Positions 5,127-25,254 of a stretch of 25,254 nt of DNA are shown here, piece by piece. Made by a program: the position numbers and the translations under genes. Source of the DNA: a virus. Within the stretch, counting starts at the first letter, position 1. Each line of letters starts with the position of its first letter. The stretch is taken from positions 1 to 25,254 of the IMG/VR virus record IMGVR_UViG_3300017593_000076. The stretch is one strand, 5' to 3'. The notes beneath the pieces are model-generated. The model was not told the origin of the DNA, did not search any database, and worked only from the letters and a program-made list of their open reading frames with translations.

Positions 5127-7637
5127 CTATTCGACGAGGTTCCCTACATCGGGCGCGCGGGCCTGCTCCAAATGATCGCCCGGCGACCAGAAGTAGTCCT
5201 GCCCCTGATCGGCGGCGTAGCGATCGAGGCGCTTGAAGCGCTCCCGATAGTCGGGATCGACCATCTGCGACATCTCGTCGAGCATCAGCCGCTCGAACGC
5301 CAGGCGCGTGAACCAGAGCGATCCGATGCCTGGTGTTTCGCTCTTCAGCGTCTTGACAAAGGCCGCGCCCGGGTTGGTCTTTTCGCCCTGGATCACCTTC
5401 AGCGGCTGCCCGACCGCCAGGCCGAGCGCCGCGTCGACGGTCGCAAAGGCAGGCCCCGCCAATACCGTGCCGATGCCGCCGCCGAAACGCGACTGGCTCG
5501 AGCGCAGAAAATCGCCGTAAATGCCGAGCCCGCCGCCCTGCAGCACCGAAGCGCCCCAGAAAGCTGCCGTCGCGCCCGGATCCTCGCTGTCATAGATCGG
5601 GCGGGGATCGCGGCCCTTGGCGATTTCCTTCAGCTGCAGCGCCGTCGCGCCCATGACGGTCGTATAGAGCGTCATCATCACCGCATAGCGCGCGCGGTCC
5701 CATCCCGTCATCGCCAGCGCGCGCTGCATTTGCATCATCGTCAGGCCGATCGCGAAGCTTTTGAACTGGAACGCCGTGCGGCCCATCTCACCGACCAACG
5801 TGCCTTTGGGCAAAATGCTGTTCACCGCCGCATTGAGCGCGATCGATGGCACCGGCACGGCATAGTCGGTTTCGGTCAGGATCATCCGCATCATGCGATC
5901 GCGCAGCGCCTGGTCGCCGATCGCGTCGGGCAGGATCCAGTCGGCGCCGCGGGCCTGGGTAAGGTTGGTGGCGCGGATCTTGTCCCACTCGGCCGCGCCC
6001 ATGCCATAGCGTTCGAAGCTATTGCGGAACGGCGCGTCGAGATTGTCGAAGGCCTTGGCGCGCTCGCTGGTGATATGGGCGAGGAAATCCATGCCGAACG
6101 CCCAGCGGCCGCTCTGCGTCACCGCGCCCAGGCCGGAAATTCGCATCGTTCCCTCGGCGAGCCGGCGCGACCATTCGCCGGTCAGCTCTTCGCCGGTCAT
6201 GCGCGCGGTCGAGGCGGCCATCTGGCTCGCTTCCTCGGCGATCAGCCCCATCCGCATTGCCAGCGCCCGATCCTCGAGCGCACCAGGCCGGAGCAATTTC
6301 AGCTGCGACGACAGCTGCGACACGATCGGGATCCCGTTCATCTGGCGAGCGAGCAGCTGCGTCGCCTGGTCGGACGTCGTCGACAGCACGGCCGATCCCA
6401 GCTTGGTCGCAATCTGCCAGCTTCGCAGCGTCGAAAAGCCGAGCGCCATGCGCCGACCTTCGGGACGGCGGTTCGCGCCGGAGATCTCGTCATAGATTCG
6501 CAGGATACGCTTGCGCGCCGAAAAGCCCGCGTCACGATGTTTCTTCGCGCCGGCGCCGCCCGCGGCCGCCTTGAGGTTCGCGTCCTTCTCGATCGTGTCG
6601 GTCAGCCATTTCAGCGCCTGCGCTGGGTTCGGGCCGAGCCGTTCCATCAAGGCAATGTCGCGCGACATCGCATCGATATGCGCCATCATCGTATCGAAGG
6701 GGCTGGCGCCGCCGCCATACTTCGCCTGCATCGCCATCCAGGCATCGGCATCGGTGAACGACAGGAAACGATGATCGGCGCGGCGGTTCGCCAGACTGCC
6801 GACGCCCGCTTGCCCGCCGGGGTCGCGGTGCGCCCAGCCATCGGTCGATATCGTGTCGAACACGTCGCGCAGCGCGGCATCGAGCCCCTCGTCGGTGAAC
6901 GGTGCCCCGGTGGCGCCGTCGATCATTTTCGCCCGATCGAGCGAGGCGAGCATGTCACCGCGCCAAGTCTCGAAACCGATCGACGCGACCGCGTCGGGAT
7001 CCCAGCTCTGCGGCATCCCCCAATCCTCGAGCTTGCCGATATGGCCGCCGGCGGCGTTATAACGCTGGCGCAGCGCCTCACTCGCCGCGCGCCAGGCGTC
7101 GGCGAGCTCGCGTGCCGACAGGTTGCCCGTCGAACCCGGGACGAACAGCTCGCGCACCATGTCGTCGAGCTCGGCCTTGTTGCGCACGCGGCCGAGCAGG
7201 TCGCGGCTATGCTTCTGCAGCACGCCTGACATCGTCGCATGCGCCTGCCCGCGCACCGATTTCCACAGATACTCGACGTTGCGATACGGCGCATATTCGC
7301 TGCGCACGAGCAGGGCCTCAGCCGCTTTCGCCAGCCGATCGGCCGCGGCGTCGTCGATCGCGCGCACGCCGCCGGCCCCGCGGCCATATGCCTGCATGTC
7401 CAGCCAGGCGGTGCGTTGCCCCTGCACCTGCAGCAGCGCCTGGCGCTTGCGCTGCAGCTTCGTCGTGGTCAGCTGCTCGAGCGCGCGCGTGCTCGCGATC
7501 GCGTCGGCCGCCTCGTCGCCCATCGTCTTGCGATATTCGGATTTCAGGGCACCGAACAGCGACAGCATTTCGTCGGCCTGGCGCGCATCGATGTCGCCAT
7601 TGGCGAGCAGGTCGGGAATGCAGAGAGCTAGAGACAT
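5127..7637 (-). CDS. Large internal virion / DNA-ejection-type protein
   Basis: An 836-residue protein, mostly alpha-helical with many Ala, Arg and Glu residues, some amphipathic stretches (ALNAAVNSILPKGTLVGEMG; YAVMMTLYTTVMGATALQL) and no recognised enzyme motif. Large helical proteins between the SLT-carrying core protein and the tail fibre are typical of podovirus ejection proteins, which leave the capsid and form a conduit across the envelope. T7 itself has no fourth protein here. The start at 7637 overlaps the upstream gene by 10 bp with a GAGGCGG site before it. The last 20 residues contain DHLEQ, encoded by a copy of the repeated promoter-like motif. Confidence 0.75.
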   Translation of the reverse strand: MSLALCIPDLLANGDIDARQADEMLSLFGALKSEYRKTMGDEAADAIASTRALEQLTTTKLQRKRQALLQVQGQRTAWLDMQAYGRGAGGVRAIDDAAADRLAKAAEALLVRSEYAPYRNVEYLWKSVRGQAHATMSGVLQKHSRDLLGRVRNKAELDDMVRELFVPGSTGNLSARELADAWRAASEALRQRYNAAGGHIGKLEDWGMPQSWDPDAVASIGFETWRGDMLASLDRAKMIDGATGAPFTDEGLDAALRDVFDTISTDGWAHRDPGGQAGVGSLANRRADHRFLSFTDADAWMAMQAKYGGGASPFDTMMAHIDAMSRDIALMERLGPNPAQALKWLTDTIEKDANLKAAAGGAGAKKHRDAGFSARKRILRIYDEISGANRRPEGRRMALGFSTLRSWQIATKLGSAVLSTTSDQATQLLARQMNGIPIVSQLSSQLKLLRPGALEDRALAMRMGLIAEEASQMAASTARMTGEELTGEWSRRLAEGTMRISGLGAVTQSGRWAFGMDFLAHITSERAKAFDNLDAPFRNSFERYGMGAAEWDKIRATNLTQARGADWILPDAIGDQALRDRMMRMILTETDYAVPVPSIALNAAVNSILPKGTLVGEMGRTAFQFKSFAIGLTMMQMQRALAMTGWDRARYAVMMTLYTTVMGATALQLKEIAKGRDPRPIYDSEDPGATAAFWGASVLQGGGLGIYGDFLRSSQSRFGGGIGTVLAGPAFATVDAALGLAVGQPLKVIQGEKTNPGAAFVKTLKSETPGIGSLWFTRLAFERLMLDEMSQMVDPDYRERFKRLDRYAADQGQDYFWSPGDHLEQARAPDVGNLVE
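5165..5178 (-). promoter_or_regulatory. Promoter-like motif, site A (tailspike)
   Basis: CGATCATTTGGAGC within the last codons of the 836-residue gene. The conserved TA lies at 5146-5145, 35 nt before the tailspike ATG at 5110. It would give the tailspike its own transcript at the end of the structural operon. Confidence 0.6.
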
Positions 7638-10600
7638 TTTCTTGCCGCCTCGATTGCCGCGTCGTCGCGGCCGAATTGATCCAACAGCTCGCCGATCGTG
7701 CGCTCGACGGGCTCACCTTCGCCCAGGTCGACCAGGAAGCGAGGTTCGCCGGCCTCGTCGGCCGCTGCGCGCAAAGTCAGCTCGCCCTGATCGGCGCGGT
7801 CGAACAGCCCTAGGCCCATGCTGCCATCCTGTTCGGCCGTCGATCGCAACGGGGATCCGGCGCGCAGCTCCATTTCGATCGCGCGCCTGGCGGCGATCGC
7901 CGGATCGGCAATGTCGCCGGCGTCCAGCGCAGCGGCGACCTTCACGTCATGCTCGAGATTGTCGGCCTGCAGCTTCGTGCCCGGACTATCGGGCGCGTCG
8001 AACAGCTTGCCTTGTTCGGGATCGAGAGGATCGAAGCCCCGCTCTATGCCTGTTTCGATTTCCTCACGGCGCGGCCAGGCGCCGTCTAGGCCATCCGGCT
8101 CGCGCGAATAGCCCGCCCCTGGGAGAATGTCGCCATCCGCTTCGACAGCATCGCCTGCGCGTCCTGCTCCATCAGGAAGGCGACCATCGACCGCGTCGCC
8201 GCCGGATCGCGCCAGAGCGGCGAAGTCGAGTTTTCGGACATCGCCGACGAACTTTCGGACGATACCGGCGACGGCACCGCCTGCTGCGAGCTCGCCCGCG
8301 GCGGCATCGATGATGTCTTTGACGGGGCCCGCGCTGAAGGCGAGGCGCTGGACGAGCTCGATTGCGGTGGCATTGTCGATCGTCTCCTGTTCGCTGGCCT
8401 TGCGGTCGATCTTCGATCCGCTTCTTTCCAGCGTTTCCGCGTTTTTAGCCGCGACGCCATGAACCTGCTTCAGCTTCTTCAGTTCGCCCAGGCCGCGCTC
8501 GAGGATCCGCGCGCGATCGAGGAACAGCGACGAAGTGCTGTCGAGGGCGCCGAACATATCGAACTGCTGCTCGCGCGTAAAGCCGGCGGCGATGCCCTGC
8601 CTGACGATGCTGTCCGCCTGCGACATGCTGGCAGGCTGCAGCTTGACCAACAGGTCGACCAGCGCCTTCTGCTCGCCCGGGTCCGACAGCAGGCGGCCGA
8701 CGATCGCCGCGTGCCCCGGATCGACCAGCTCATTCACTACCATGCCGAACGCATCGTCGCCGAGACGTGACAAGCCGCCGGCGTCACGCACCAGCACCGA
8801 TCGCGGCGGCAGGAACGTCATCGCCTGGTCGGGCCCGATGCTGCGCATGACCTTTGCCGCATCGACCATGGTGCCGGACCCCTCGGCAACATTCTTCAGC
8901 GCCGCCCATACGCGGGCGCTTTCGGCGTCCCACCCATCGGCTTCGCGCAGCACGAGCGCGTCGATCGCCACCGACTGCCCCGGATCTTCGGCGCGGATCC
9001 GCTTCGCCAGGCCAAGCCGCTGATGACCATCGGCGATCAGTCGGCGGCCGTCCGCGGCCTCCCATACGATCGAGCGGCCAGCGAGGACCGGGTTCCATTG
9101 TTTCACACCCTGCAGGCGCTCGGTTACGCCGAACGCATCGCCGCCGCCCTTGAACTGCATCAAATCGGCATCGACCGCGATGTCGTCGGGATCGAAGCTG
9201 CGCGACGTGATCGTGCTCATGTCCATGCCGGCGATCTTCATCGCGGCCGCTTCCTGACGCAGCAGCAGCGCCTCGTCGCGCAGCAGCTCGGCCTCGGTCC
9301 CGTCGCGCACCGCGCCGGCGCCGCCGCGGCCAGCCGGCACGCTCGCCGATCGGCCGCCGACTGCCTTGTGGATTGCGGCGATCGCTTCGCTCGCCGACTT
9401 GCCGCCACCGAAATAGGTCGGGTTGCCGCGGATGACATCGGCCGAAAGGATCCGCGCGACCGGCGTGTCGGCCGCCGCCTGCAGCACCTTCGGCCCGTCG
9501 CCGCTGCCCAGGACGTGCATCACATACATGTTGCCCGTGGTGCGCGGGACGCCGATCCTGCGAAGCGCCGCCGAATTGTCGGCGATTAGCGCATCCATCA
9601 GCTTTTCCTGCACGTCGACGTCGAAGCGCTGATTGCGCCAGGCCGCGTCGGCCGAGGCGGCGCTGCCACCATAGACGCGGCGATAATATCCTTTGAACGT
9701 GCCCTCGACGAACTGATAGCGCCCGCTCGCCGACGAACCCAGGCGATTGGTCGCCCGGTCGTTGCCGCCGCTTTCGGGGCCGGCGATCGCGCGCTTCAGT
9801 CCATCCGGATCGAAATCGCCGGCGACCGACGCCGACGCACCGCCGCCGGCGCTATCGACTGTGCGGCCCGGCTCGCCGATCGCGCGCGACGCCGCGGCGG
9901 CATAGTCGGGGATCTCGGTCGAACGCAGCACGCCCTCGAGCGCGAGCGACAGCCGATCGGCATAAGCGTCGCCGGACCCTGCGATATAGGGGTTGCCGGC
10001 ATCGATGTCTGACTGGCGCTCGATCGCCGTCGCGCCCGCGGCCACGTTCGGATCGCCTTGCGCGCCCATCTGGCGCGAAAGTGCGACGAGCTCGCCATCA
10101 TCGAGCGAACCGAGGATCTCACTGATCACCTGGCGCTCGAGCTGGGTCGGAGACGTAATCTCGGCCGCTTCGAGCGCGCGGGCCATTTTCTTTTCGATCG
10201 GGCTCAGCGCGTCGAAAGCGCGGCCGCCATATTTGCCGGCGGATGCGATCAGGCCGCCGAGGACAAACCCGCCAGTCACGGCAAAGCCCGCGCGCGCGAC
10301 CGACTCGCCGAGCGTCAGCTCCTCGCCCAGCAGCTCGCGGTTTTCGGCCACCACGGGCTGCGACAGCACTTCGACCAGACCATTGGCGAGCGCCGATCGC
10401 GCCGCGATGCCGATGATCGTCTTGCCGCCGCCGCCTACCGGCATGGTGATGATGTTCCACGGATCCTCCATGGCCTTCGTCACGCCGCCGGCGAGATTGG
10501 CCGCGGTGCCGCCGATCCCTTCGCTGCGGTCGAGAACGCCGCGCGCGCGGCCGCGCTTGGCCTGGTCGCGGGCGAGATAGGGTGCAAGGATCTGCTCGCG

Positions 10601-11008
10601 CGATCCGGGCAAGTCCGACATGAAGCCCGGGCGGCCCTGCCGGATCCGCGCCACTTCGGCGACCAGCGCGTCGCCGACCTGGTCGCGACTGCCGTCGTCG
10701 AACAGGCCCATGGCCGCATAGACATTGACTGGCGCTGCGGAACCTATGGTCTGGTTTCGGCTGATCTTGCCATAGGAGGGCGGAAGGAACAGCGGCAACC
10801 CTTCCTGCCGCCGCACCGCATTGACCGCCTCGAGCGTGCTACCGAAAGCTTCGTCATAGAGCCGATCTTGATAATCGGTGTTATCGGCGTCCTGCAGGTC
10901 GCGCGCGGCGCGATAGGTTTCCGAGAGCGTCGACGGCGCCCGGTAGGGCTCGGGCGCTTTCAGCTCAACATCGTCGTTCGCATATGCGGTAAATGGGCTG
11001 CTTGCCAT
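7628..11008 (-). CDS. Internal virion protein with lytic transglycosylase-like and ParB-like domains
   Basis: 1126 residues. After a helical N-terminal third, with a glycine-rich hydrophobic patch around 240-262, there is a lysozyme/transglycosylase-like domain at about 398-555: AIAGPESGGNDRATN with probable catalytic Glu412, then SASGRYQF, as in SLT-type domains that open peptidoglycan during DNA entry. A second region, about 600-725, has the signature IADGHQRLGLAKRI (658-671), resembling the core motif of ParB/sulfiredoxin-fold domains. The C-terminal part is helical and acidic. Its position matches T7 gp16. A large virion protein combining peptidoglycan hydrolase and ParB-like modules recalls the 'polyvalent proteins' injected with phage DNA. 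The SLT call is firm; the ParB-like call is moderately firm; its activity is unknown. Confidence 0.82.
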   Translation of the reverse strand: MASSPFTAYANDDVELKAPEPYRAPSTLSETYRAARDLQDADNTDYQDRLYDEAFGSTLEAVNAVRRQEGLPLFLPPSYGKISRNQTIGSAAPVNVYAAMGLFDDGSRDQVGDALVAEVARIRQGRPGFMSDLPGSREQILAPYLARDQAKRGRARGVLDRSEGIGGTAANLAGGVTKAMEDPWNIITMPVGGGGKTIIGIAARSALANGLVEVLSQPVVAENRELLGEELTLGESVARAGFAVTGGFVLGGLIASAGKYGGRAFDALSPIEKKMARALEAAEITSPTQLERQVISEILGSLDDGELVALSRQMGAQGDPNVAAGATAIERQSDIDAGNPYIAGSGDAYADRLSLALEGVLRSTEIPDYAAAASRAIGEPGRTVDSAGGGASASVAGDFDPDGLKRAIAGPESGGNDRATNRLGSSASGRYQFVEGTFKGYYRRVYGGSAASADAAWRNQRFDVDVQEKLMDALIADNSAALRRIGVPRTTGNMYVMHVLGSGDGPKVLQAAADTPVARILSADVIRGNPTYFGGGKSASEAIAAIHKAVGGRSASVPAGRGGAGAVRDGTEAELLRDEALLLRQEAAAMKIAGMDMSTITSRSFDPDDIAVDADLMQFKGGGDAFGVTERLQGVKQWNPVLAGRSIVWEAADGRRLIADGHQRLGLAKRIRAEDPGQSVAIDALVLREADGWDAESARVWAALKNVAEGSGTMVDAAKVMRSIGPDQAMTFLPPRSVLVRDAGGLSRLGDDAFGMVVNELVDPGHAAIVGRLLSDPGEQKALVDLLVKLQPASMSQADSIVRQGIAAGFTREQQFDMFGALDSTSSLFLDRARILERGLGELKKLKQVHGVAAKNAETLERSGSKIDRKASEQETIDNATAIELVQRLAFSAGPVKDIIDAAAGELAAGGAVAGIVRKFVGDVRKLDFAALARSGGDAVDGRLPDGAGRAGDAVEADGDILPGAGYSREPDGLDGAWPRREEIETGIERGFDPLDPEQGKLFDAPDSPGTKLQADNLEHDVKVAAALDAGDIADPAIAARRAIEMELRAGSPLRSTAEQDGSMGLGLFDRADQGELTLRAAADEAGEPRFLVDLGEGEPVERTIGELLDQFGRDDAAIEAARKCL

Positions 11009-11010
11009 CG

Positions 11011-13080
11011 TCAGACCCCCGACGCGCGCGGCTGCGGGCCCTTCGGCACCACCGCATCTTCAAATTTCATCCTCCCCGGAGGGGCGCCATAGAACGCGCC
11101 CTGCGGCTTGACGGGCTGTGCCTTTGGCACAGCGGCCGCTGGCGCCAGCTTCGACACGTCGATCGAATATGGCGTGCGCCCATCCTTCCTCACAGCGACC
11201 TCGCCCCGCCGCGAAACGAAGCGATAGCGGCCATCGGGCTGCAGCTGGGGCACAAAATTGGAACGCAATTCATTGCCGCCGATTTTGCGCCCCGACGCAT
11301 CATATGCCTCGGTTGGCTTGAAACCGCCCAAGCGGGCGTCGAATTGCTGCTGCGACATGTCGGAGGGCAGCATGATTTTGGCGTCGTTCCACTCGCCGAT
11401 GCCGCCCGTCCTGCTATGAACATTCCCGCCGAGCGCCTCGCGCACCGCGCCGCGGAAAAGCTTCGGGTCGAATTCATCCTTGCCAGCACGCGAGGCCGCT
11501 TGGCGGTATAGATCCTTGGCAGAGAGATAGGCCGCTTCGCGCGAAGCTTCCGGCAATCGCGCCAACGCGTTCCCCGTGCTGTCGCGCCAGATTAGCGACG
11601 CCTGATCTTCCGGCACCGGATATTCTTTGCGTAGCCCCTTGCCGCGAAAAATCCCTTGCTGCACTTCGGGACGCAACCCCATCGAATAAGCGAATAGCGC
11701 GTCTCCAGGAAGAACCTGCTGCGCCGCCGCCTTCGCAGCCATGGGGCCCAGCGCGCGAAGCTGCCGCGCGACGGCGAGTTGCCCCGCAGGCGTATCGGCG
11801 TTGGCCGCGAGTTGCGTCGCCTCTTCATCGCTGAGATACTTCGCCGGCACGCCCATGGCGCGCGCGGTGGCGTCGGCAGCCTTGCGTCGCGCCGCGACCG
11901 ATGCTGGATCGGCCCAGTCGACCGGCTCGACGCGGATACCCATCGCGGCGCCGGCGGCGAGCGGATCATTGGCGACCTGCTTTTTCCGTTCGATCAGCAG
12001 CTTATCAAGCGCCGCACGTTCCGCGACCAGCGCAGGGTTGCCCTTGTCGCCCGCTTTCGCGAGCTCGGCGTCGATGATCTTGATGCGCTGGTCCATCTGC
12101 GCCGGCGTGGCGCTCGCCCATTCCTTGTTGACCTGCTTCCCTACATGCGCGTCGTTCAGGTCGCGCACCCTCTTGTCGAGGCCGCTGCGCGTCGCGCGCG
12201 TCATTGCCTCGGCATAATCCTCGTCTTCGACGGGATAGCCGCGGTTGATGCGATCGAGCACATCGTCGACATATTCGACGTCCTCGGCCTTCGCCGCTCG
12301 CGCGGCCGCGTCGGCCTCAACCTGTTTGCGGCGGATATCGCTGTCGGCTTCGGACAACACCGCCTCCACCTGCTCGCTGGTCAGCAGCGTGTCGAATGTA
12401 TGGCTGTCGATCATCGCCTTGCGGGCTTCCGGCTCCTGGCTGCGCAGCCAGGCGAAAGTCGCTTTCTGCGCAGCGCCTCGCCGCCATTCGAGCACGGCGC
12501 CTTCGGGGATGCCCTTCGGCACCTCGACGGTTTCGATCTCGCTCAAAGTCTCGACATAGTCGGCGAGAGGTTTGCCGCGCACCGAATTTGCCATGGCGTC
12601 GGCCGAGGCGTCCATCTGGTCGGCCATCAACTTCGCCGTGGATCCGCGCTCGAACGCGTCGGCCTGCACCGCCCGCTCGGCTTTCCAGTCTCCCAGGCGC
12701 GACGAATAGGCCTGGCGCAAACCTTCGTGGCCGATCGACGCGAGAAATTCCTCGCTCTGCTTGGCGGCGAGCTCGGTCATCGATTTCGCATAACCCGCTG
12801 CGCCGGGACCGGCATTGGTGCGCGCTTCATTGTCGGCAAGCCCATAGGCTTCCTTCAGCTGCGCCATGCGCAACATGGCATCGGTGGCCTGCCGGTCATA
12901 TTCGCGTTGCGTCTCGAGCTTGCGATCGTCGATCGCCGCGCGGCCCGCGACGCCGCCGGCGCCGGTCAGAGCATCGCCGACCCCCGCGCCATAATCTTCC
13001 GGCGTCGCCATCGGCAACGCGGTAGCGGTGCGCTGCGGTGAAAGCTGCGGCGCATACCCGCCAAACAAGGGATCAGCCAT
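11011..13080 (-). CDS. Internal virion protein (T7 gp15-like position)
   Basis: 689 residues, strongly helical, rich in Ala, Glu, Arg and Lys, with few hydrophobic runs and no membrane segment. The opening (MADPLFGGYAPQLSPQRTATALP) followed by a long helical array (residues 50-400) is typical of the second ejection protein of T7-like and related podoviruses, which builds the periplasmic tunnel together with the SLT-carrying protein. The identification comes mainly from length (T7 gp15 is about 750 residues) and gene order. It overlaps the upstream gene by 8 bp and is followed after two bases by the 1126-residue protein gene. No enzymatic motif is seen. Confidence 0.75.
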   Translation of the reverse strand: MADPLFGGYAPQLSPQRTATALPMATPEDYGAGVGDALTGAGGVAGRAAIDDRKLETQREYDRQATDAMLRMAQLKEAYGLADNEARTNAGPGAAGYAKSMTELAAKQSEEFLASIGHEGLRQAYSSRLGDWKAERAVQADAFERGSTAKLMADQMDASADAMANSVRGKPLADYVETLSEIETVEVPKGIPEGAVLEWRRGAAQKATFAWLRSQEPEARKAMIDSHTFDTLLTSEQVEAVLSEADSDIRRKQVEADAAARAAKAEDVEYVDDVLDRINRGYPVEDEDYAEAMTRATRSGLDKRVRDLNDAHVGKQVNKEWASATPAQMDQRIKIIDAELAKAGDKGNPALVAERAALDKLLIERKKQVANDPLAAGAAMGIRVEPVDWADPASVAARRKAADATARAMGVPAKYLSDEEATQLAANADTPAGQLAVARQLRALGPMAAKAAAQQVLPGDALFAYSMGLRPEVQQGIFRGKGLRKEYPVPEDQASLIWRDSTGNALARLPEASREAAYLSAKDLYRQAASRAGKDEFDPKLFRGAVREALGGNVHSRTGGIGEWNDAKIMLPSDMSQQQFDARLGGFKPTEAYDASGRKIGGNELRSNFVPQLQPDGRYRFVSRRGEVAVRKDGRTPYSIDVSKLAPAAAVPKAQPVKPQGAFYGAPPGRMKFEDAVVPKGPQPRASGV

Positions 13081-16846: not shown

Positions 16847-16861
16847 GTCACCCCCGCCTCA

Positions 16862-16909
16862 CCTCAAAAAGGCAAACCGGGACGGCTGGAGGTGTATCAG
16901 CCGCCCCGG
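16862..16909 (-). terminator. Rho-independent terminator between capsid and tail blocks
   Basis: Minus strand: a 12-bp stem (CCGGGGCGGCTG with CAGCCGTCCCGG, one mismatch) with a short loop, followed by TTTGCCTTTTTG. It lies in the 78-bp gap between the small capsid-block gene and tail tubular A. It probably limits read-through, so that capsid proteins are made in excess over tail proteins. Confidence 0.75.
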
Positions 16910-16924
16910 ACGCGCCTGGCAAGG

Positions 16925-17362
16925 TCAGACGGCGTCGGAATAGAAGATGTCGACAACCAGGTAATCGGCGCTGGTCGGAGCCGCGGCGGCGCCAACGGTC
17001 GCGATCAGCGTCTTTTCTTCAGCAAACGGCGCGGCCGCGATGCCCTCGGCGATGCCGAACAAGGTCGGAGTGTCCGCTACCGTAAAGATCGCGGCAGCGC
17101 GGAACGCCGTGGGGTCGCCGACGATGCCGATCGCGAGCGTCGCTGCGGCGCCGAAGGTGGCTTTTGCGGTGATGACGCCAAAGGCGAACGTCGCACCCGG
17201 GGGCAGCTTGCCCAACGTGATGGTGTCGGCGGCCGCCTGACCGTCATAGTCGATCGTTGCGCGGACGCGCTTGAGCTTCGCCTGGTGATGGCGGCCGTCC
17301 GACTTCGAATAGTTGTTGGTGCCGAGCGAATTCGCGGTTTCGCGAGAAAAGCTGTTAGCCAT
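16925..17362 (-). CDS. Small capsid-block protein, possible decoration or head protein
   Basis: 145 residues. A polar basic N-terminus (MANSFSRETANSLGTNNYSKSDGRHHQAKLKRVRATIDYDG) is followed by a regular series of Ala/Gly/Thr-rich beta strands. The gene lies directly after the major capsid gene and before the terminator, so it would be co-transcribed with the capsid protein and made in quantity. This fits a capsid-decoration or head-stabilising role, as small genes after the capsid gene often have, but I do not recognise the family. AAAGGA precedes the ATG by about ten bases. Confidence 0.75.
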   Translation of the reverse strand: MANSFSRETANSLGTNNYSKSDGRHHQAKLKRVRATIDYDGQAAADTITLGKLPPGATFAFGVITAKATFGAAATLAIGIVGDPTAFRAAAIFTVADTPTLFGIAEGIAAAPFAEEKTLIATVGAAAAPTSADYLVVDIFYSDAV

Positions 17363-17394
17363 GATGTTGCTGTCCTTTTAAAAGTTGACCCTTG

Positions 17395-17418
17395 GGGGAC
17401 GCCGCTACGCGGCGCCCC
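17395..17418 (-). other. Hairpin between the capsid gene and the next gene
   Basis: GGGG-CGCCGC-GTA-GCGGCG-T-CCCC on the minus strand forms a strong stem with a 3-nt loop and one bulge, in the 74-bp gap after the capsid stop. No immediate U-tract follows. It could act as an attenuator or protect the capsid mRNA 3' end. Confidence 0.6.
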
Positions 17419-17436
17419 GCCCGGTGCGACCCAGGC

Positions 17437-18357
17437 CTAAGCCTCGAGACACTCGATATAGCCGACCTTGCCCTCTTCGCTGCGGGTCGCTGCCACCTGA
17501 CGGCGGGCATAGACCTGGGCGGAGAAGTGCTTCGTCGGCAGCTGGTCGATGCTCGAGAAGAGCTCCTCCCACATCACGCCGTAGATGCCGCTCTTGGGAT
17601 AGAACGGCACCTTGCGGTAACCGCCACCCGTCAGCGACAGCGAGGCCGCTTCCTTCAAGCGCGGATTGCTGAGCTCGATATGCGCGAAGTTGAAGCCGAA
17701 CAGCTTGCGGACCATGCCGTTGGTTATTTCGGCGCCGGTGGCGCCGTAATCCTTGTTGACCGTCTCGATCTGGCCGAGCAGGTCGCTGTTCTGCTTCGCT
17801 GTGATTGGCATCCACAGCTCCTCTTCGTCGAGATCGACGTCGTTGGCGCGGAGGATCTCGTTCGCGGCATTGAGCTTCTTGATGGTCAGGCCGACGTTGC
17901 CGCCGCCGCCTTCGTTCACCGGAACGACATTGTTGCCGTCGAACGGCGTCAGGATCGTGCCCTTCAGCCCGGTCTGTGCCGTGCTGAAAATTCCGGTGAT
18001 GATCTCGGCATCGGTGCCGCGGCCGATCGCCGCCGAGCCGGCGCGCACATAAGCGCCCTCGATGTCGATGCCCGACGCCAGCTTGTCTTCCTTGTCGACC
18101 AGGTCGGCATAGACGATCGGATCGGGCATGGCGATCCAGCGGCCATCGTGCGGCGTGTCGACATACTGGGTGTCGGCGTGGCGGGACTGCTTCTTGTAGT
18201 AATCGGCTTCGCCGATCAGATCGTCGAGCTTCATGAGCTCGCCCGACCCGGGAACGACGGTAACCGTCTTCAGCAGTCGGCTATCCTTCTGCTGCAGCGC
18301 CAGCTTAACGCTGTCGCGGTACTTGGTGCGGTGCATCTGCGTAACGAACTGGGACAT
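17437..18357 (-). CDS. Major capsid protein
   Basis: 306 residues, MSQFVTQMHRTKYRDSVKLALQQKDSRL then HADTQYVDTPHDGRWIAMPDPIVYADLVDKEDKLASGIDIEGAYVRAGSAAIGRGTDAEIITGIF, and the C-terminal YGVMWEELFSSIDQLPTKHFSAQVYARRQVAATRSEEGKVGYIECLEA. This matches the type of podovirus major capsid protein (HK97-like fold) found in many alpha- and betaproteobacterial phages. It follows the scaffold gene, as expected. A strong AGGAGG stands five bases before the ATG and the mRNA leader is long (about 160 nt from the proposed promoter). High confidence from sequence style and order. Confidence 0.9.
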   Translation of the reverse strand: MSQFVTQMHRTKYRDSVKLALQQKDSRLLKTVTVVPGSGELMKLDDLIGEADYYKKQSRHADTQYVDTPHDGRWIAMPDPIVYADLVDKEDKLASGIDIEGAYVRAGSAAIGRGTDAEIITGIFSTAQTGLKGTILTPFDGNNVVPVNEGGGGNVGLTIKKLNAANEILRANDVDLDEEELWMPITAKQNSDLLGQIETVNKDYGATGAEITNGMVRKLFGFNFAHIELSNPRLKEAASLSLTGGGYRKVPFYPKSGIYGVMWEELFSSIDQLPTKHFSAQVYARRQVAATRSEEGKVGYIECLEA

Positions 18358-18537
18358 GGTGGCCTCCTCAAATTTCTGGAATTTGCGAAGGGCTTGGCGG
18401 CGCTATGGCCGGGCCTCTCTGGCGGGTGACGTCCCGCTTGGACGGGGCCCTTTCTCGTGCCCCTTAGTCCGGGCCTGGCGATGCGGATGCACGCTGGCTT
18501 GGCGAACAGGGGCGGCATAACTCGGCATGCCGCCCCC
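18358..18537 (-). promoter_or_regulatory. Leader region of the major capsid gene with strong hairpin
   Basis: This gap between scaffold and capsid genes contains no reading frame I trust. It holds a 10-bp perfect inverted repeat, GGGGCGGCAT (18509-18518) and ATGCCGCCCC (18527-18536), directly downstream of promoter-like site B, a smaller CGTCC/GGACG stem, and AGGAGG before the capsid ATG. No U-tract follows the large hairpin, so it is not a standard terminator; its downstream arm includes the TA of the proposed -10 region. Confidence 0.5.
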
Positions 18538-18551
18538 GCTCCAAATGATCG
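18538..18551 (-). promoter_or_regulatory. Promoter-like motif, site B (capsid gene)
   Basis: CGATCATTTGGAGC, identical to two other copies in the window, begins one base after the scaffold stop codon. A TA dinucleotide lies at the conserved distance (18519-18518). The capsid ATG is 161 nt beyond, so this transcript would have an unusually long leader. Confidence 0.55.
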
Positions 18552-19523
18552 CTATCCCTGGGCCTCGCGCTCGCGCGTCTCGGCGGCCGCGACGATCGAA
18601 AGCAGATGGTCGCGCTCGGCCTTCAGCTTGGGATCCGATTTGAGTTTCTCGAGGTAGCCATCGGTCTTGCCGAGCACATCGAGCTTCGCCTGGGCTTCCT
18701 CTTTCGACAGGCTGAATTTGGGGCGGCCACCGGCGTCGAGCAGGATATCCTCGCCCATTCCCATGCCGAGCTTCGCGAACAGTGCGAGCGTCTTCTTGGT
18801 GCCGAGCCCGGCCTCGATGCCGGCGATGTCCTCGCCCGTCATCTCGAGCAGCCGCATCGCCTTGTTGCCGGCGGCGATATGCGTGTTGAACTTGTCGCCG
18901 ACCTCGGATTTATATTCGGCGACGCCGGCGTCGCGCTGCTGCACCTGGCCAGCTTCGTGCTGCTCCATGATCCCGCGCATGTAAGCGTTGAACGGCTCAG
19001 CCATGGCCGCGAACATGCTGGCGGGGACGCCCGCCTTGAACGCGGCCTCGCGCATGACCTTCGCGAGATCGTCGTTAACCTCTTCGCCCTCGCCGAGCTT
19101 CAGATCATATTTGTCGGCCGCTTCGGGACGGCCGATCGCCTTATGAAAGGCCTCGACGGCTTCCGGGCTGTCGCCTTCCTTCGGCAACACGATCTTTTCG
19201 CCGTTGCGCAGCTGGTTCTCGAGCTCGCGATAGCTCGACACCATCGCGTCGGGATCCTTAAAGCCCTTTGACTTCACCCAGTCGCGGCTCGCGGTCTGAC
19301 CTTCACCCGCCGGCTTGTCGTTGAAAATCCCGATCCACTCGGGCGGCGCCTCGCCAGCACCCCCGGCAGCTGCAGCCGCGGCCGCCGCAGCGGCTGCGTC
19401 ATCGCCGCCACCCTGCCCGCCGAGCAACCCTGCAGCTCCACCGCTTGCAGCTGCTGCCGCGGCGGCCGCTGCGCCATCGCCTTCGCCTCCGGCGGCACCT
19501 GCCGCCCCGGTTCCATCACTCAT
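18552..19523 (-). CDS. Scaffolding / capsid assembly protein
   Basis: 323 residues. The first 55 or so are low-complexity Ala/Gly, then PPEWIGIFNDKPAGEGQTASRDWVKSKGFKDPDAMVSSYRELENQLRNGEKIVLPKEGDSPEAVEAFHKAIGRPEAADKYDL, the typical core of podovirus scaffolding proteins (helper of procapsid assembly, absent from the mature head). The C-terminal helix KSDPKLKAERDHLLSIVAAAETREREAQG is charged and would contact the capsid protein. The start at 19523 has GGAGGTGA just upstream and overlaps the Bbp19-like gene by 8 bp. It lies between portal and capsid genes, as in T7. Confidence 0.88.
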   Translation of the reverse strand: MSDGTGAAGAAGGEGDGAAAAAAAAASGGAAGLLGGQGGGDDAAAAAAAAAAAGGAGEAPPEWIGIFNDKPAGEGQTASRDWVKSKGFKDPDAMVSSYRELENQLRNGEKIVLPKEGDSPEAVEAFHKAIGRPEAADKYDLKLGEGEEVNDDLAKVMREAAFKAGVPASMFAAMAEPFNAYMRGIMEQHEAGQVQQRDAGVAEYKSEVGDKFNTHIAAGNKAMRLLEMTGEDIAGIEAGLGTKKTLALFAKLGMGMGEDILLDAGGRPKFSLSKEEAQAKLDVLGKTDGYLEKLKSDPKLKAERDHLLSIVAAAETREREAQG

Positions 19524-19815
19524 CGCTCACCTCCACAAATGGGGCTATGTCTTCGCCCCTGATACCCAACATGGTCAGGATCCGCAGCGCGACCTCGCGC
19601 CGCCCCTCGAGCAGCGCGTGCGCGCGCGGATCCACTTCGAACGTCGATCGATCGACGCGGCAAAATTTCCGGAGATCCGCGAGCACCTTGCGGCCCGAAA
19701 GGCTGACAGTGCCGTCGCTGTCGAAAAATAGGCGCTGGTAGTGCATGGCGCGTCGCGCGTTCCATGACCGCTGCAGGAGCGCCAGGACGTCGGGCGCCTC
19801 CGGATCAAATACCAA
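19516..19815 (-). CDS. Bbp19-like small phage protein
   Basis: 99 residues, with YQRLFFDSDGTVSLSGRKVLADLRKFCRVDRSTFEVDPRAHALLEGRREVALRILTMLGI. This pattern (phenylalanine-rich start, VLADLxxFC, then EGRRxxxLxIL) fits the family named after Bbp19 of Bordetella phage BPP-1, small proteins found between portal and scaffold genes of podovirus-like prophages. The function is unknown; a head-assembly role is inferred from the location. It overlaps the portal gene by 11 bp and the scaffold gene by 8. Confidence 0.75.
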   Translation of the reverse strand: MVFDPEAPDVLALLQRSWNARRAMHYQRLFFDSDGTVSLSGRKVLADLRKFCRVDRSTFEVDPRAHALLEGRREVALRILTMLGIRGEDIAPFVEVSDE

Positions 19816-21445
19816 GCGCCGTCTCCTCGCCGCGCGCGGCCGACAGATCCTTGACCGCGCCGGCGCCGAGCGCGAGCTGCTTCAACGTGTTGTCGACCTC
19901 TTGCTGCTGCGCGCGCGCTTCGCCCTTTGCGGTGACCTCGTCGGGGGTCGACAGATACGCCTGGCGAACAGCAAGCGATTTCGCGAGCTCGCGCGGGGCG
20001 CGCTGCCAGTTGACGACGTCGTAAACCTCGGGCCCGGCGATCGAGGCCGCGGGCGTGAGCATTTCGATAAAGCGTCCAAAACCGAGCGCCTCTTCGGCCT
20101 TCGCTGCACGAGTAAGCGGGTTGTCATAGACGAGTTTGACCTGTGCCCCCTCCTCGCGCATTTCAGGCGGTGGCGGCGGGATCGTTCCGCTATCGAGCAG
20201 GATCTCGAGCTCGCGGGCCGTCTGGGGCGACAGCCACTCGGTTTCGCCGCGGCTCGCGCTGGGCGACATCAGCATGCCGACCATTCGCGTTTGCTCGAGC
20301 ACTTCGGTTGCCGTCATGCGGTCGCGCCGCTCGAGCACGAGCGAAAAGACAGTTTCGAGGAACGCGTCGCGGATAGGCTCGCGCTCATTGTTGAGCAGCT
20401 CCATGCCAAGCGGCAGATTGCCGCCGGTCTGCAGCGGCACGACCATCGGGCTACCGTCGAAGCCGAGGCCGCCGACGTTGATCCCGCCAGGCTTGGTCTG
20501 GATCCGCGACAGCACCCCATCCTCGGGCGTCAGAAGCGGCGGATCGACGGCCTTGTGCCCCGCGCGAAGCAAGGTCTTGACCATCTCGTTGACGGTGCGG
20601 ATCGAACCGAGCACCTGCATGGCAGGCGATCGCCCATAACGCTCGCGAGGGCCGGTGACGTACCGCGCGAACGCGATCGGCATCGTCTCATATCCGCCCT
20701 CGCGTAGCTGCGCCTTGTCCTCGACGCAGATATAGCGGCTTTCCCAGGCCATGCGACGAAAGTCGAAGCGTCCGGGGTCGCGCTCGGCCCGCGGGCGGAT
20801 GACGTGCAGGAACGTGAATTCCTGGCTGAGCTTGTTTTCCGCGATCGCCTTCTGGATCGAGGGCGTGAGATTGTCGGGGCCGAACATTTGCCGCGCCTGG
20901 CGCGCGGTCCGCGTGAACTTGCGGTGGACCGTGTCGATGCGACCGGTAAAATCCTCGTCGACGAACACCTCGGCGAGGTGAAGCGTCTTGTAGAACATCC
21001 CCAGGCCGGGCCGATGATCGGTCCACAAAGGCGCGTTGCCATATGTGCCGATCGACCGGATGCACATTCCCGCCTCGGTTTCGAAACCGGCGATCGGCCG
21101 ATATCGAGCACCGAACAGCAGATCGGTGGCCTTCTCGGCCCACTGCTGAAAGGCGGGAAAATCGTTCAGCGACGTGCTGGTCGACTGGACCAGCTGATAT
21201 CGCTCGCCGCGCGGGATGATCATCCCGCCATAGGCGGCCTGGAAACGGTTGAGCCCGGTCGAGGCAGTATGGTCAAAGATCGTGGTCCCACGGACCCCGC
21301 CCTTCGCCGCCTGGGTGAAACCGCCCTCGCCGAGCGGGTTGACCCGCTCATCGATTTCACGCCAGGCAGGCTCATAGGGCAAGCGATCGCTTTCGAGCTC
21401 GATCTGCCTCTGCAGGATCTCTTCGACGATCGCATTGTCATTCAT
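19805..21445 (-). CDS. Portal protein (head-tail connector, T7 gp8-like)
   Basis: 546 residues. MNDNAIVEEILQRQIELESDRLPYEPAWREIDERVNP is the helical start of podovirus connectors, followed by TIFDHTASTGLNRFQAAYGGMIIP and later RERYGRSPAMQVLGSIRTVNEMVKTLLRAGHKAVDPPLLTP, a conserved connector segment. Near the C-terminus, VKLVYDNPLTRAAKAEEA matches the common 'v.y.sPLaraqk.ee' motif. Twelve copies would form the ring through which DNA is packaged and ejected. GAGGAAGG lies upstream of the ATG. The assignment is confident from motifs, size and location. Confidence 0.92.
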   Translation of the reverse strand: MNDNAIVEEILQRQIELESDRLPYEPAWREIDERVNPLGEGGFTQAAKGGVRGTTIFDHTASTGLNRFQAAYGGMIIPRGERYQLVQSTSTSLNDFPAFQQWAEKATDLLFGARYRPIAGFETEAGMCIRSIGTYGNAPLWTDHRPGLGMFYKTLHLAEVFVDEDFTGRIDTVHRKFTRTARQARQMFGPDNLTPSIQKAIAENKLSQEFTFLHVIRPRAERDPGRFDFRRMAWESRYICVEDKAQLREGGYETMPIAFARYVTGPRERYGRSPAMQVLGSIRTVNEMVKTLLRAGHKAVDPPLLTPEDGVLSRIQTKPGGINVGGLGFDGSPMVVPLQTGGNLPLGMELLNNEREPIRDAFLETVFSLVLERRDRMTATEVLEQTRMVGMLMSPSASRGETEWLSPQTARELEILLDSGTIPPPPPEMREEGAQVKLVYDNPLTRAAKAEEALGFGRFIEMLTPAASIAGPEVYDVVNWQRAPRELAKSLAVRQAYLSTPDEVTAKGEARAQQQEVDNTLKQLALGAGAVKDLSAARGEETALGI

Positions 21446-21463
21446 CGCGCGGCCTTCCTCAAA

Positions 21464-21997
21464 TCAGCCGAACGACAGCTGGCCGCGCTTGAACTCGAGC
21501 TGCTGCCCGGGGTTGAGCCCGACCGGCGATCCCAGCTCGTTGACGTCGAGCGGGCGCTGCCCCTGCATCAGCCAGACATGCGTCACTTGCGTGGTGCGCG
21601 GCAGGGTGTGCGTTTTGTGGACGACGGAGCGCGTCACCTGGAAGCGGCCCCCGCGGCGCGTTGCGCTCGGCTCGAGGGTGATGCTCTCCGGCTCGATCGC
21701 CTTGGTCGGCCCGCGTTCGTTGCCGAGCGCGACGGTCAGATCGTCACCCTTCGCGATCGCCGCCTCGATGTTGTCGCCAGCCTTTTCCTTCAGCTTGGCG
21801 ATCTGCTCCGCAGCGTCGACGGTCTTGGGCTTCACCTTCGACTGGCGAGGCCTTGCCGCGGCGGCCTTCGTCGCCGCAGCCTTCGCGCTGGCGTCCGCGA
21901 AGCCTTCGCGTTTCGCGTTGGTTTCATCCGCGGCAGTCGGCGCGGCGGGTTTCGCCGCGTCAGCCGCCGGGGTCGGGGTCGGTTTCGTGTCCGTCAT
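21464..21997 (-). CDS. Small protein upstream of portal, unknown function
   Basis: 177 residues. The first 60 are a low-complexity Ala/Thr/Pro/Lys linker (MTDTKPTPTPAADAAKPAAP), the middle is charged and helical (KTVDAAEQIAKLKEKAGDNIEAAIAKGDDL), and the C-terminal 75 residues form a compact beta-rich domain (RFQVTRSVVHKTHTLPRTTQVTHVWLMQGQRPLDVNELG). The start at 21997 is chosen because AGGAG lies seven bases upstream; the frame is open to 22090 but that part overlaps the preceding gene. Its place among head-assembly genes suggests a virion or assembly role. I do not recognise the family. Confidence 0.7.
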   Translation of the reverse strand: MTDTKPTPTPAADAAKPAAPTAADETNAKREGFADASAKAAATKAAAARPRQSKVKPKTVDAAEQIAKLKEKAGDNIEAAIAKGDDLTVALGNERGPTKAIEPESITLEPSATRRGGRFQVTRSVVHKTHTLPRTTQVTHVWLMQGQRPLDVNELGSPVGLNPGQQLEFKRGQLSFG

Positions 21998-22007
21998 CGT
22001 CGTGCTC

Positions 22008-22238
22008 CTATTGGCCGACAAGGGTCTTGACGCTGGGGGCCGCGGCCTCGGCCCCGCCTGCGCCGGTGAGCATGTCCGCGGCGCCGCCACGGCGTTTGCG
22101 CAGATTGTCTTCCTTGATCGCCTCGCGGGCGACGTCGTCGCGCGTGGGCGCGGCCACGGGCGCCGGGATCTTGGGTTTTTTGAACAGGCCGACCGCCGCG
22201 CCGAGCGGGGAGATCAAGGCATTTGCGATTTTCGACAT
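22008..22238 (-). CDS. Small tail-assembly-like protein (T7 gp7.3-like pattern)
   Basis: 76 residues: an amphipathic basic N-terminus (MSKIANALISPLGAAVGLFKKPKIP), a Pro/Ala linker, and RKRRGGAADMLTGAGGAEAAAPSVKTLVG. The 'RRGxxAxxLTGxxG' string and a C-terminal '.KTLlG' are frequent in small virion proteins encoded next to the portal gene, which occupy the place of T7 gp7.3. The start ATG at 22238 follows GGGAGCTGACCG and lies just after the terminase stop at 22242. A putative promoter copy is centred about 60 bp upstream, inside the terminase gene, so this would be the first gene of the portal-scaffold transcript. Functional assignment is tentative. Confidence 0.7.
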   Translation of the reverse strand: MSKIANALISPLGAAVGLFKKPKIPAPVAAPTRDDVAREAIKEDNLRKRRGGAADMLTGAGGAEAAAPSVKTLVGQ

Positions 22239-22241
22239 CGG

Positions 22242-23801
22242 TCAGCTCCCGAACGGGTTATAATCGGCGTCGACCGTTACGCCGGTTCGCTGCCCCTGCT
22301 CCAAATGATCGGCGCGGCCCGCCCCGGACATGCGGCCCCAGCCGCTCGCGACCATCAGATACTGCAGCGCGTCGTGAACGTGGCTGAATTGGTTCTTCAC
22401 CGGCTTGTTGTCGTAGCGGCCCTCTTTGCCGGCGAGCGCGGTGCGGCGATATTTGTACCCGCTGTTGAAGCCGCGGCGCAGGATCTTGCACGCCGGGCTG
22501 ATGACCAGGGCGGGACGATCGCCCTCGAGGATCTTGGTCAGCGGCCGCCGCACCGCCTCGAGGCGGATCGTCAAATCATTGTTCGGCACCGGCGCGGGGC
22601 GGATCTTCAACTTCGAAACTTTCGCCGCGGTCTGCAGCCAGGTCAGCTCATTGCCGGATCCATCGACGCCCTTGGTCGCCGCGGGGTCGACGGCGGCGAA
22701 TTCGATCGCGAAACCCGGGAAGCGGCTAGCGAGAAGGTCGGCCAGGGCCTCGCCGAACGCCGTGGGCCCGACCGCGGCGAGCTGATCATCCTCCTCGAGG
22801 AAGGTGGCGAGCTCGGCGAGCACGATCGTTTGCCCTAGCTGGTTGCGCTGGGCGATGACGGCCGCCGGGGTCAGCCCCGCGTCCATGCCGATGCGCAGCG
22901 CGACGCCGCGGATCGGCTGGATATCGGCATCGGTGACGTGCCGCCCGTTGCTGAACTCGGGATAGACCGGCATGCCGTCGCGCACGGCGCCGAATTTGTT
23001 ATGGACCATGCGGCGGCATTTGTCGGCCGACATGAGCGCGGCTTGCTTGAGGTAGTAATTGCGGCCGCCCTTGAGATTTTGGAGGTTTTCGGCGCCGGGA
23101 TCGAGGCCGCCGGGCTGCTCGAAGAAGTCGATCAGCTTTTGCGTCCCGCCCGTCTCTTCGGCGATCACGGCCGCGAGCTCGGGATCGATCGCTTTGTCGA
23201 CGAACAGCGAATACATGTGATTGTCTTCGTCGGGCGCGTTGAAATCGCCCCAGATCTGCGCGAGCGTGCAGCCTCCTTGAACCTCTGCAGGGTAGCGGCC
23301 GACGCGGCCGACGCCGAACTCGAGTAGATCCGGCGGCAGCAGATCCCATTCGTTGCCCCACAGGCCTGTGAGCTCGAAACCGCGCAGCACGTCCTCGACG
23401 CTATGGTCGCCGATCGCCGTGAAGATCATCTCCATGTCGATTTGGTGAAAGCCGCGCACGCCAGGCCGGCCGACATTGATCGTGAACGTGTGCGTGCGGG
23501 GCGCTTCGCCCGACCATTTGCCGATTTCCTTGGGCACCCACTGATGCCAGGTCTTAATCAGCGTGCGATCGAGGTTCGGATAGGTGTCGCGGACGGCCGC
23601 GATGCGGCACCGCTTGACGAAGCACTTGCGCGTATCGTCCCAAACCGGCCGCTGCGCGTTCGCCAGGCGAAAACAACGGGCGATCCCTGCAACCGTCTTG
23701 CCACCGCCGACCGGCCCCATTATGCCGCTGATAAATGCCGTGCTCGCGATGAAGGCCGACGCCTTCGGCCCCACCGGCATCATCTGCCTGATCGACGCCA
23801 T
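22242..23801 (-). CDS. Terminase large subunit (packaging ATPase-nuclease)
   Basis: 519 residues. Walker A GPVGGGKT at 29-36; Walker B-like segment GLWGNEWD at 146-153; nuclease-domain acidic residues in RIGMDAG (Asp307), AAVDPAA (Asp372) and a C-terminal HVHDALQYL (Asp477), consistent with a RuvC/RNase H-like fold. It would drive DNA into the procapsid through the portal and cut concatemers. The start ATG at 23801 shares its A with the stop of the short upstream frame (TAATG). The C-terminal DHLEQ (498-502) is encoded by a copy of the repeated promoter-like motif, so this end of the protein may be constrained by regulation rather than by function. Confidence 0.95.
   Translation of the reverse strand: MASIRQMMPVGPKASAFIASTAFISGIMGPVGGGKTVAGIARCFRLANAQRPVWDDTRKCFVKRCRIAAVRDTYPNLDRTLIKTWHQWVPKEIGKWSGEAPRTHTFTINVGRPGVRGFHQIDMEMIFTAIGDHSVEDVLRGFELTGLWGNEWDLLPPDLLEFGVGRVGRYPAEVQGGCTLAQIWGDFNAPDEDNHMYSLFVDKAIDPELAAVIAEETGGTQKLIDFFEQPGGLDPGAENLQNLKGGRNYYLKQAALMSADKCRRMVHNKFGAVRDGMPVYPEFSNGRHVTDADIQPIRGVALRIGMDAGLTPAAVIAQRNQLGQTIVLAELATFLEEDDQLAAVGPTAFGEALADLLASRFPGFAIEFAAVDPAATKGVDGSGNELTWLQTAAKVSKLKIRPAPVPNNDLTIRLEAVRRPLTKILEGDRPALVISPACKILRRGFNSGYKYRRTALAGKEGRYDNKPVKNQFSHVHDALQYLMVASGWGRMSGAGRADHLEQGQRTGVTVDADYNPFGS
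22298..22311 (-). promoter_or_regulatory. Promoter-like motif, site C (portal block)
   Basis: CGATCATTTGGAGC inside the 3' end of the terminase large subunit gene. The conserved TA is at 22279-22278, 40 nt before the ATG of the next gene at 22238. Identical 14-mers occur at two other block starts. Confidence 0.6.
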
Positions 23802-24139
23802 TACACCCCTACCCCATTTGCCGGGCCCGGGAATTGCGCGACCGATCCCTTACCCCTACCCGATCCGTCGGCGTTCGCCTTCGCGGATGCATCCAAGTGG
23901 CCGAGGCGAGGGAAATCGAGCCCTTCGCATGCCATCGGCCCGAAAATGTGAAATGTCTCGGGCGCGACCCCGGGACCATATCGGGAAAGGCCGTTGGGGG
24001 GCCCCGGGGGGTGCCTCGCCGATCGGCCCAGGCAAAGGCCCCCCGGGGTGCGGCCAACGTGAAGGTGCGAAACCTGACGGGACGGGCCAGATTGCCGCTC
24101 TAGATCAATGCGATAGTGCGAGCGTTCCGAACTTGTCAT
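23801..24139 (-). CDS. Doubtful short ORF between terminase genes
   Basis: A 112-residue frame whose start overlaps the small-subunit stop as ATGA and whose stop overlaps the large-subunit start as TAATG. Such exact joints are typical of real operon genes. Against this, the protein is rich in Gly and Pro (HPPGPPNGLSRYGPGVAPE), uses codons rare in its neighbours (many GGG, CCC, AGG and a CTA), and spans a very strong hairpin, so the DNA may serve as a structural signal instead. No family is recognised. Translation may serve only to couple the two terminase genes. It is listed because its boundaries fit, with low confidence in a functional product. Confidence 0.3.
   Translation of the reverse strand: MTSSERSHYRIDLERQSGPSRQVSHLHVGRTPGGLCLGRSARHPPGPPNGLSRYGPGVAPETFHIFGPMACEGLDFPRLGHLDASAKANADGSGRGKGSVAQFPGPANGVGV
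23992..24059. repeat. Large GC-rich inverted repeat between the terminase genes
   Basis: Left arm pieces CGTTGG, CCCCGGGGGG and TGCCT pair with right arm pieces AGGCA, CCCCCCGGGG and CCAACG around a loop of about 13 nt, with small internal loops. The whole element is 68 bp and would be very stable as RNA or as a DNA cruciform. It lies in the only sizeable gap of the packaging genes. Possible roles are a packaging (pac/cos) recognition region or a regulator of large-subunit expression; neither is proven. Confidence 0.7.
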
Positions 24140-24822
24140 TCCGAACTCCCTTCATCGACGTGCGAGAAACCCACGTTTTCCGCCGTTTCTTCGCCCGCGA
24201 AGCCCATGCCGCCGAACAGGTCGCCATCGGTGCCCGCGGGCACCAGGTCGCCGCCGTCGAGCAGGCCGCCGCCCTCGACGAAATTGATCGTCACATCGCC
24301 CTGCACGCGATGGTCGACCGCGATCGGCATCTTCGACGCGAAGAAGGGCAGCAGATTGTCGTCGCATCGGATCTGCAGCTGCGCGGCCTCGAGCTTCGAG
24401 CAGCCGAGCTCGCCGGCCAGCTGCTCGACCGAGCGCCCCAGGAAGCGCATTTGCGTCACCCCAGGCTGCGGCCCGAACTGCAGCAGATATTGCTGGAAGG
24501 CCAGATTTTGCCGGTTCTTCGACCCCGGCTTGCGGCCGCCGTCGCCCTTCAGGCGTCGGTGCTCGGCGATCGCGCGGTGCAGGTCGCCGCCCATGGCCAT
24601 CTGCAGCTGCACGATCTCGGCCGCGTCGGGCAGCGACACATAGGCGTCGTTCTCGGCCAGGTCGGGCAGCTCGGGCGCGTCCCCATCGGGTATCAGGGGC
24701 AGCTGCTCGCCCGCGCTGGCGGCCTTCGCCTGGTCGAAATCGGACCGCGCCGCGTCGATCGACGCCCGCGCGCCAGCGGCATCGCCGCCGAAAATTTCGC
24801 CCGCCTCGCCCGTGCTCGACAC
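24136..24822 (-). CDS. Terminase small subunit-like protein
   Basis: 228 residues. An acidic N-terminal half is followed by RRLKGDGGRKPGSKNRQNLAFQQYLLQFGPQPG and LAGELGCSKLEAAQLQIRCDDNLLPFFASKMPIAVD. The sequence 'GRkpGSkN' followed by 'LA.eLgcs..EA...q..aa...lPyf..K.P.AV' is common in proteins encoded just upstream of podovirus terminase large subunits and often annotated as small subunits or DNA-binding partners. The GTG at 24822 is the first start after an in-frame TAG and follows AGGGG, so the start is well fixed. A promoter-like motif lies about 60 bp upstream. A DNA-recognition role in packaging is inferred. Confidence 0.65.
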   Translation of the reverse strand: MSSTGEAGEIFGGDAAGARASIDAARSDFDQAKAASAGEQLPLIPDGDAPELPDLAENDAYVSLPDAAEIVQLQMAMGGDLHRAIAEHRRLKGDGGRKPGSKNRQNLAFQQYLLQFGPQPGVTQMRFLGRSVEQLAGELGCSKLEAAQLQIRCDDNLLPFFASKMPIAVDHRVQGDVTINFVEGGGLLDGGDLVPAGTDGDLFGGMGFAGEETAENVGFSHVDEGSSE

Positions 24823-24880
24823 CCCAAAACACCCCTAGATCGACGTTGAGGCGAAGCGGCTAGCATGCGCTCGAAGGCGC

Positions 24881-24894
24881 GCTCCAAATGACGA
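24881..24894 (-). promoter_or_regulatory. Promoter-like motif, site D (packaging block)
   Basis: TCATTTGGAGC is conserved, with TCG in place of CGA just before it. The conserved TA is at 24862-24861, 39 nt before the GTG start of the terminase small subunit. This would be the first late promoter of the operon. Confidence 0.55.
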
Positions 24895-24916
24895 CGATCA
24901 TGGGAAGGAGGCTGCA

Positions 24917-25189: not shown

Positions 25190-25254
25190 GCCAATCGGCG
25201 CGGCCAACCCCACTTGAATGCCTCGAAAGGGGTAGGGGCGCAAGGACTATGCAT

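Follow-up and report, generated by a model that had tools for sequence, protein, structure and literature searches.

A bipartite DNA motif, in which an asymmetric box is followed at a fixed distance by a TA dinucleotide, occurs four times on the late-gene strand of the virus record described here, each time before a gene start. The initial annotation had reported this repeat, and the observation is real and stronger than first claimed. It is very likely that the four sites are late promoters of a Sphingopyxis-type podovirus prophage that are read by the host RNA polymerase, with a phage activator at the box replacing the −35 element and the TA forming positions −12/−11. Judged from the DNA, the motif probably shows how the virus turns on its late genes. 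A limited search of open papers returned no description of late promoters of sphingomonad prophages.

Late gene map of the window and its relatives

The window, by which we mean the whole analyzed stretch of 25,254 nucleotides, is a 25-kb virus record whose minus strand carries podovirus late genes: those for the large terminase, portal, capsid, tail tubes, large virion proteins, tailspike, and lysozyme. Its closest relatives are prophages in Sphingopyxis-type bacteria, namely those of the SPHING1 MAG (L053, G006) and Sphingopyxis sp. H050 (L052 in G005; L007 in G001 is the same phage), together with the contigs L011 (G002), L009 (G003), and L047. The genes that matter for the motif are the following.

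24136..24822, minus strand: putative small terminase gene (terS), first in the predicted packaging transcript, GTG start at 24822
22242..23801, minus strand: large terminase gene (terL; phrog_2, E 4.6e-14)
22008..22238, minus strand: 76-aa ORF, first in the predicted portal transcript, start kept in relatives
19805..21445, minus strand: portal (head-tail connector) gene (PF12236, E 8.9e-93; phrog_332)
17437..18357, minus strand: major capsid gene (phrog_3437, E 2.6e-51)
2984..5110, minus strand: tailspike or tail fibre gene (phrog_1640 at the N terminus; beta-helix match weak)

The terS ORF, which is kept in all relatives (43-97%), matched nothing in a family search and is so named because it stands before terL. 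Beyond the lysis genes, the minus strand at 311-370 resembles the 3′ end of a tRNA gene (terminating in GGTTCAAATCCTACTCCCGCAACCA) and may mark the attachment site; ARAGORN found no complete tRNA there, and an Rfam search of the window returned zero families.

Four copies of the motif

The minus strand carries exact copies of CGATCATTTGGAGC at 5178-5165, 18551-18538, and 22311-22298, and TCATTTGGAGC at 24891-24881. In all four cases bases 19 and 20 after the motif are TA (5146-5145, 18519-18518, 22279-22278, and 24862-24861), and the distances from TA to the start codon given by the initial annotation (35, 40, 39, and 161 nt) are correct. The sites stand before terS, before the gene that follows terL, and before the major capsid and tailspike genes. 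Two copies fall in coding sequence, at the 3′ ends of terL and of the phrog_684 gene, and both encode DHLEQ there; the capsid copy follows the stop codon of the scaffold gene, and the terS copy is intergenic.

24881..24889, minus strand: predicted terS (packaging) promoter box ATTTGGAGC, preceded by TC; kept in L005, L053, L007, L011, L009, and L047
24861..24862, minus strand: predicted terS promoter TA; predicted start ~24850, 28 nt before the GTG at 24822
22298..22306, minus strand: predicted portal-block promoter box, within the 3′ end of terL
22278..22279, minus strand: predicted portal-block promoter TA; predicted start ~22267, 29 nt before the ATG at 22238
18538..18546, minus strand: predicted capsid promoter box, directly after the scaffold stop codon
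18518..18519, minus strand: predicted capsid promoter TA; predicted start ~18507, 150 nt before the ATG at 18357
5165..5173, minus strand: predicted tailspike promoter box, within the 3′ end of the phrog_684 gene; ATTTGGAGG in G001, G002, and G003
5145..5146, minus strand: predicted tailspike promoter TA; predicted start ~5134, 24 nt before the ATG at 5110

That the repeat is not a product of chance was also borne out. Across both strands of the window, ATTTGGAG is found exactly four times, always on the late-gene strand, against 0.07 occurrences expected under a second-order Markov model of the minus strand (2000 simulations); for ATTTGGAG-N19-TA the same model gives 0.0005. A common TA column appeared in none of 20,000 sets of four random stretches.

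Two neighboring elements were observed alongside the sites. The capsid leader (18357-18536, minus strand; 150-180 nt) is unusually conserved, with equivalents in L007, L011, L047, L049, and L053, and is kept even in L049, which has no promoter box. A hairpin (GGGGCGGCAT/ATGCCGCCCC) at its beginning overlaps the spacer of the predicted promoter, and the consensus fold of the leader contains a few compensatory pairs; no Rfam family was found for it. Upstream of the predicted terS promoter, 24905-25200 (minus strand) contains many GGTAACG / CGTTACC repeats in both orientations, which are retained in relatives (GGTAACCG in L049) and look like origin iterons or the operators of a regulator.

Conservation and restriction to the prophage

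Searching related prophages, the check proposed by the initial annotation, located the motif where its link to gene starts predicts. Relatives with 78-99% portal identity retain copies at the same gene boundaries, each before a gene or gene block, and ATTTGGAG-N19-TA is present at 20 of 20 sites in five lineages with invariant spacing; the ninth base of the box is C at 18 sites and G at 2. Inheritance links the sites within a lineage pair, so the 20 amount to about five independent contexts. A weight matrix gave true sites 25-43 bits, nothing else in these phages exceeded 10.6 bits, and the early regions contained zero sites; because these 20 sites had themselves served to build the matrix, what is informative is the gap that separates them from the next scores. 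Across two complete host genomes (4.4 and 4.3 Mb), all occurrences of the bipartite pattern (4 of 4 and 5 of 5) fall in the prophage, on the late strand, and the reversed-pattern control occurs once in each genome.

Relatives at 64-67% identity have no box, which is therefore not general to the phage group. Comparing ungapped words in two or three regions each of L048, L049, and the ~40% relatives L054-L061 revealed no convincing alternative repeated box. When 398 Sphingomonadaceae genomes were scanned for ATTTGGAG-N19-TA, matches were found in at least 182, and among the matches listed the result resembles the reversed-pattern background; a further cluster, in G186 or G240 for example, may lie beyond those listed. 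A scan of viral contigs for ATTTGGAGCAGG-N15-TA gave one match per contig, and among the matches listed none was recognized as new except that on the contig of L047.

The two bases in front of the box change in step. They are TC at all nine sites of the window and SPHING1 and CT at all eleven sites of G001, G002, and L047. Such uniformity within each group is expected if one trans-acting factor reads all sites. Two of the copies are coding, and the terminase and phrog_684 proteins accordingly share the same His-Tyr change; the remaining copies are non-coding, and it is therefore the DNA signal that is kept. The 9 and 11 sites are not independent events, since copies at one site are inherited; the weight of the pattern is that unlike sites agree inside each lineage. 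The motif set can be read as a record of promoters changing in step genome-wide, probably together with their regulator.

A fifth copy behind an inserted cassette

In SPHING1, an insert of ~1.8 kb (L072, G006:C17, about 8680-10480) splits the junction before the phrog_684 gene. The cassette, which lies between two virion genes, carries a Bro-N gene (PF02498, E 2.9e-16) and small ORFs, as well as an intrinsic terminator on the late strand (a hairpin of −21.5 kcal/mol followed by six T). Immediately behind it stands a fifth copy of the motif. Its TA begins the sequence TAGATC, and the ATG follows six bases further, which places the start predicted from the TA on the A of this ATG; the TA is thus at the distance expected of a leaderless start. 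At the same junction of the window, the two ORFs overlap without interruption and the motif is absent. The fifth copy is what a promoter restoring transcription past the terminator would look like, and SPHING1 may show how an operon interrupted by the insertion of a terminator-bearing cassette was repaired through a new promoter.

Proposed mechanism and candidate activator

The assignment to a late promoter class made by the initial annotation gains support from the conservation at gene boundaries, the restriction to the prophage, and the fifth copy: several copies in one orientation each stand before a late transcription unit. The motif itself, its spacing, strand, and positions, and its lineage-wide changes are direct observations, from which we infer promoter activity, reading by the host polymerase, and the need for an activator. 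If the TA is the −12/−11 pair of a −10 element, the box ATTTGGAGC would span −39 to −31, the normal contact zone of sigma region 4 with the −35 element, and the predicted leaders before the four gene starts would be 28, 29, 150, and 24 nt. The −10 hexamers (TAGCCG, TAACGG, TATGCC, and TAGGGA) agree with sigma-70 at TA only, and a minus-strand scan for the sigma-70 consensus (TTGACA, 16-18 nt, TATAAT), over a stretch that covered the three sites other than the one at 5165, found none at these three. A strict box at −35 combined with a poor −10 suggests an activator-dependent promoter. Beyond the TA, the −10 hexamer is poor and GC-rich, so that in the lysogen the promoters should be silent; a phage activator from the early operon would then bind the box and fire them. 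Four late transcripts would result: one for packaging, one for portal and scaffold, one for capsid, tail tube, and internal virion proteins, and one for tailspike and lysis. Exact predictions follow from the motif: four transcription starts, two short elements, and, in SPHING1, a natural fifth site.

The early regions of G001, G002, and G006 encode an integrase, cI- and cro-like regulators, a helix-turn-helix (HTH) protein, a Toprim primase, a helicase-like protein, and small ORFs, and the gene inventory of these three shows no polymerase gene between cro and terS. A T7-type polymerase profile search of G001, G002, and G003 gave zero matches, but the control genomes gave none either, and the argument against a polymerase is therefore carried by the inventory. 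Between the helicase-like gene and terS there is also a gene for a small CxxC-CxxC protein (L071, L043/L011), which is intact in G001 and seems frameshifted in SPHING1; in G002 and SPHING1 its first ATG is a TAG-containing start region.

The candidate for the activator, the least certain part of the proposal, is the HTH protein of 106-111 aa encoded directly after cro (L007:1213-1533). Between lineages with different flanking bases, 9 of the 22 residues at positions 57-78 (the recognition helix and what follows it) are kept, against 25 of the last 28 residues, and the recognition helix is identical in the two phages that share flanking bases. Its structural model shows a tri-helical HTH with moderate confidence (mean pLDDT 71). 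Comparison of the fold with the PDB gave no significant match, the best-ranked including the DNA-binding domains of LuxR/GerE, ArdK, and GcrA, and searches for relatives of the protein matched only phages already analyzed. Against this candidate, however, the N-terminal part also varies (19 of 31 residues kept), the cro-like protein diverges equally (61%), and a homologue is present in L049, which has no box. We put forward only tentatively, as a joint reading, that this single-HTH early protein sits at the −35 box and recruits the host polymerase in place of sigma region 4, that its recognition helix co-evolved with the bases before the box at every site, and that promoter copies were gained as portable units, the operon-cutting cassette bringing its own restart copy.

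Alternative explanations

The initial annotation had named two possible readers, the host RNA polymerase, perhaps with a phage activator, and a phage polymerase. The virion genes are those of a podovirus, the motif is short and phage-only, and the boxes shift together within a lineage, all of which would suit promoters of a phage-encoded RNA polymerase, as T7-like polymerases and their promoters change together. T7-type promoters are contiguous, whereas the motif here consists of two parts 19 nt apart, and from cro to terS the inventory shows just the HTH protein, the primase, the helicase-like protein, and small ORFs. Since a polymerase gene was unseen in the early regions of three relatives, the host polymerase with an activator is favored, and the phage polymerase appears highly improbable. 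The same box in terL and the phrog_684 gene encodes DHLEQ in frame, and its GGAG is similar to a Shine-Dalgarno core, so that the motif could also be taken for a ribosome-binding signal or for the conserved end of a protein (DHLEQ or DYLEQ). However, the non-coding capsid and terS copies share both the box and the lineage change, and the distance from GGAG to the start codon is not constant; we rejected both readings, whose probability we consider minimal.

Operators or stoperators of the prophage repressor, silencing late transcription in the lysogen, would account for sites that are asymmetric, partly intragenic, and in a single orientation with transcription, as are the stoperators of L5-like mycobacteriophages (PMC6550527). 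Those sites, of 13-14 bp, number 20-30 genome-wide and include the early promoter (PMC6550527), whereas the sites here number 4-5, are late only, and are missing from the cI-cro and early regions; moreover, the fixed TA 19 nt downstream is needless for a repressor site. This explanation is very unlikely. Another possible reader, acting without a phage activator, is an alternative sigma factor of the host such as EcfG, because GGAGC-N16-NNTA is similar to the GGAAC-N16-CGTT of Sphingopyxis general-stress promoters (PMC7083833), with which it shares the GGA core and the 16-nt gap before the −10 region. In those promoters the AAC of the −35 box is nearly invariant (PMC7083833), but it is replaced by AGC or AGG at 20 of 20 sites here; the CGTT of the −10 is absent, and the pattern has no further occurrence in the two host genomes. 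We therefore attach little probability to EcfG-type promoters.

Comparison with known systems

The late promoters proposed here, read by the host polymerase with a phage activator, resemble two known systems. In T4 middle promoters (MotA box, sigma appropriation), a phage-specific asymmetric box likewise replaces the −35 element and the host polymerase reads the −10 (PMC6755090). The MotA box is centered at −30 and a good −10 consensus is needed (PMC6755090), whereas the box here would be centered at −35 (−39 to −31 if the TA is −12/−11) and the −10 is kept at TA only. The late promoters of Mu are activated by C, with an activator site near a non-consensus −35 and with non-consensus −10 elements (PMC4461284). 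As proposed here, several late promoters of one phage share a common activator site and a non-consensus −10 (PMC4461284), but the sequence and geometry of the box are different. Among the scanned early proteins, no relative of MotA or AsiA and none of Mu C was noticed. These two are the nearest known kinds, and the motif probably works like the T4 middle or Mu late promoters, a likeness in mode of action rather than demonstrated homology.
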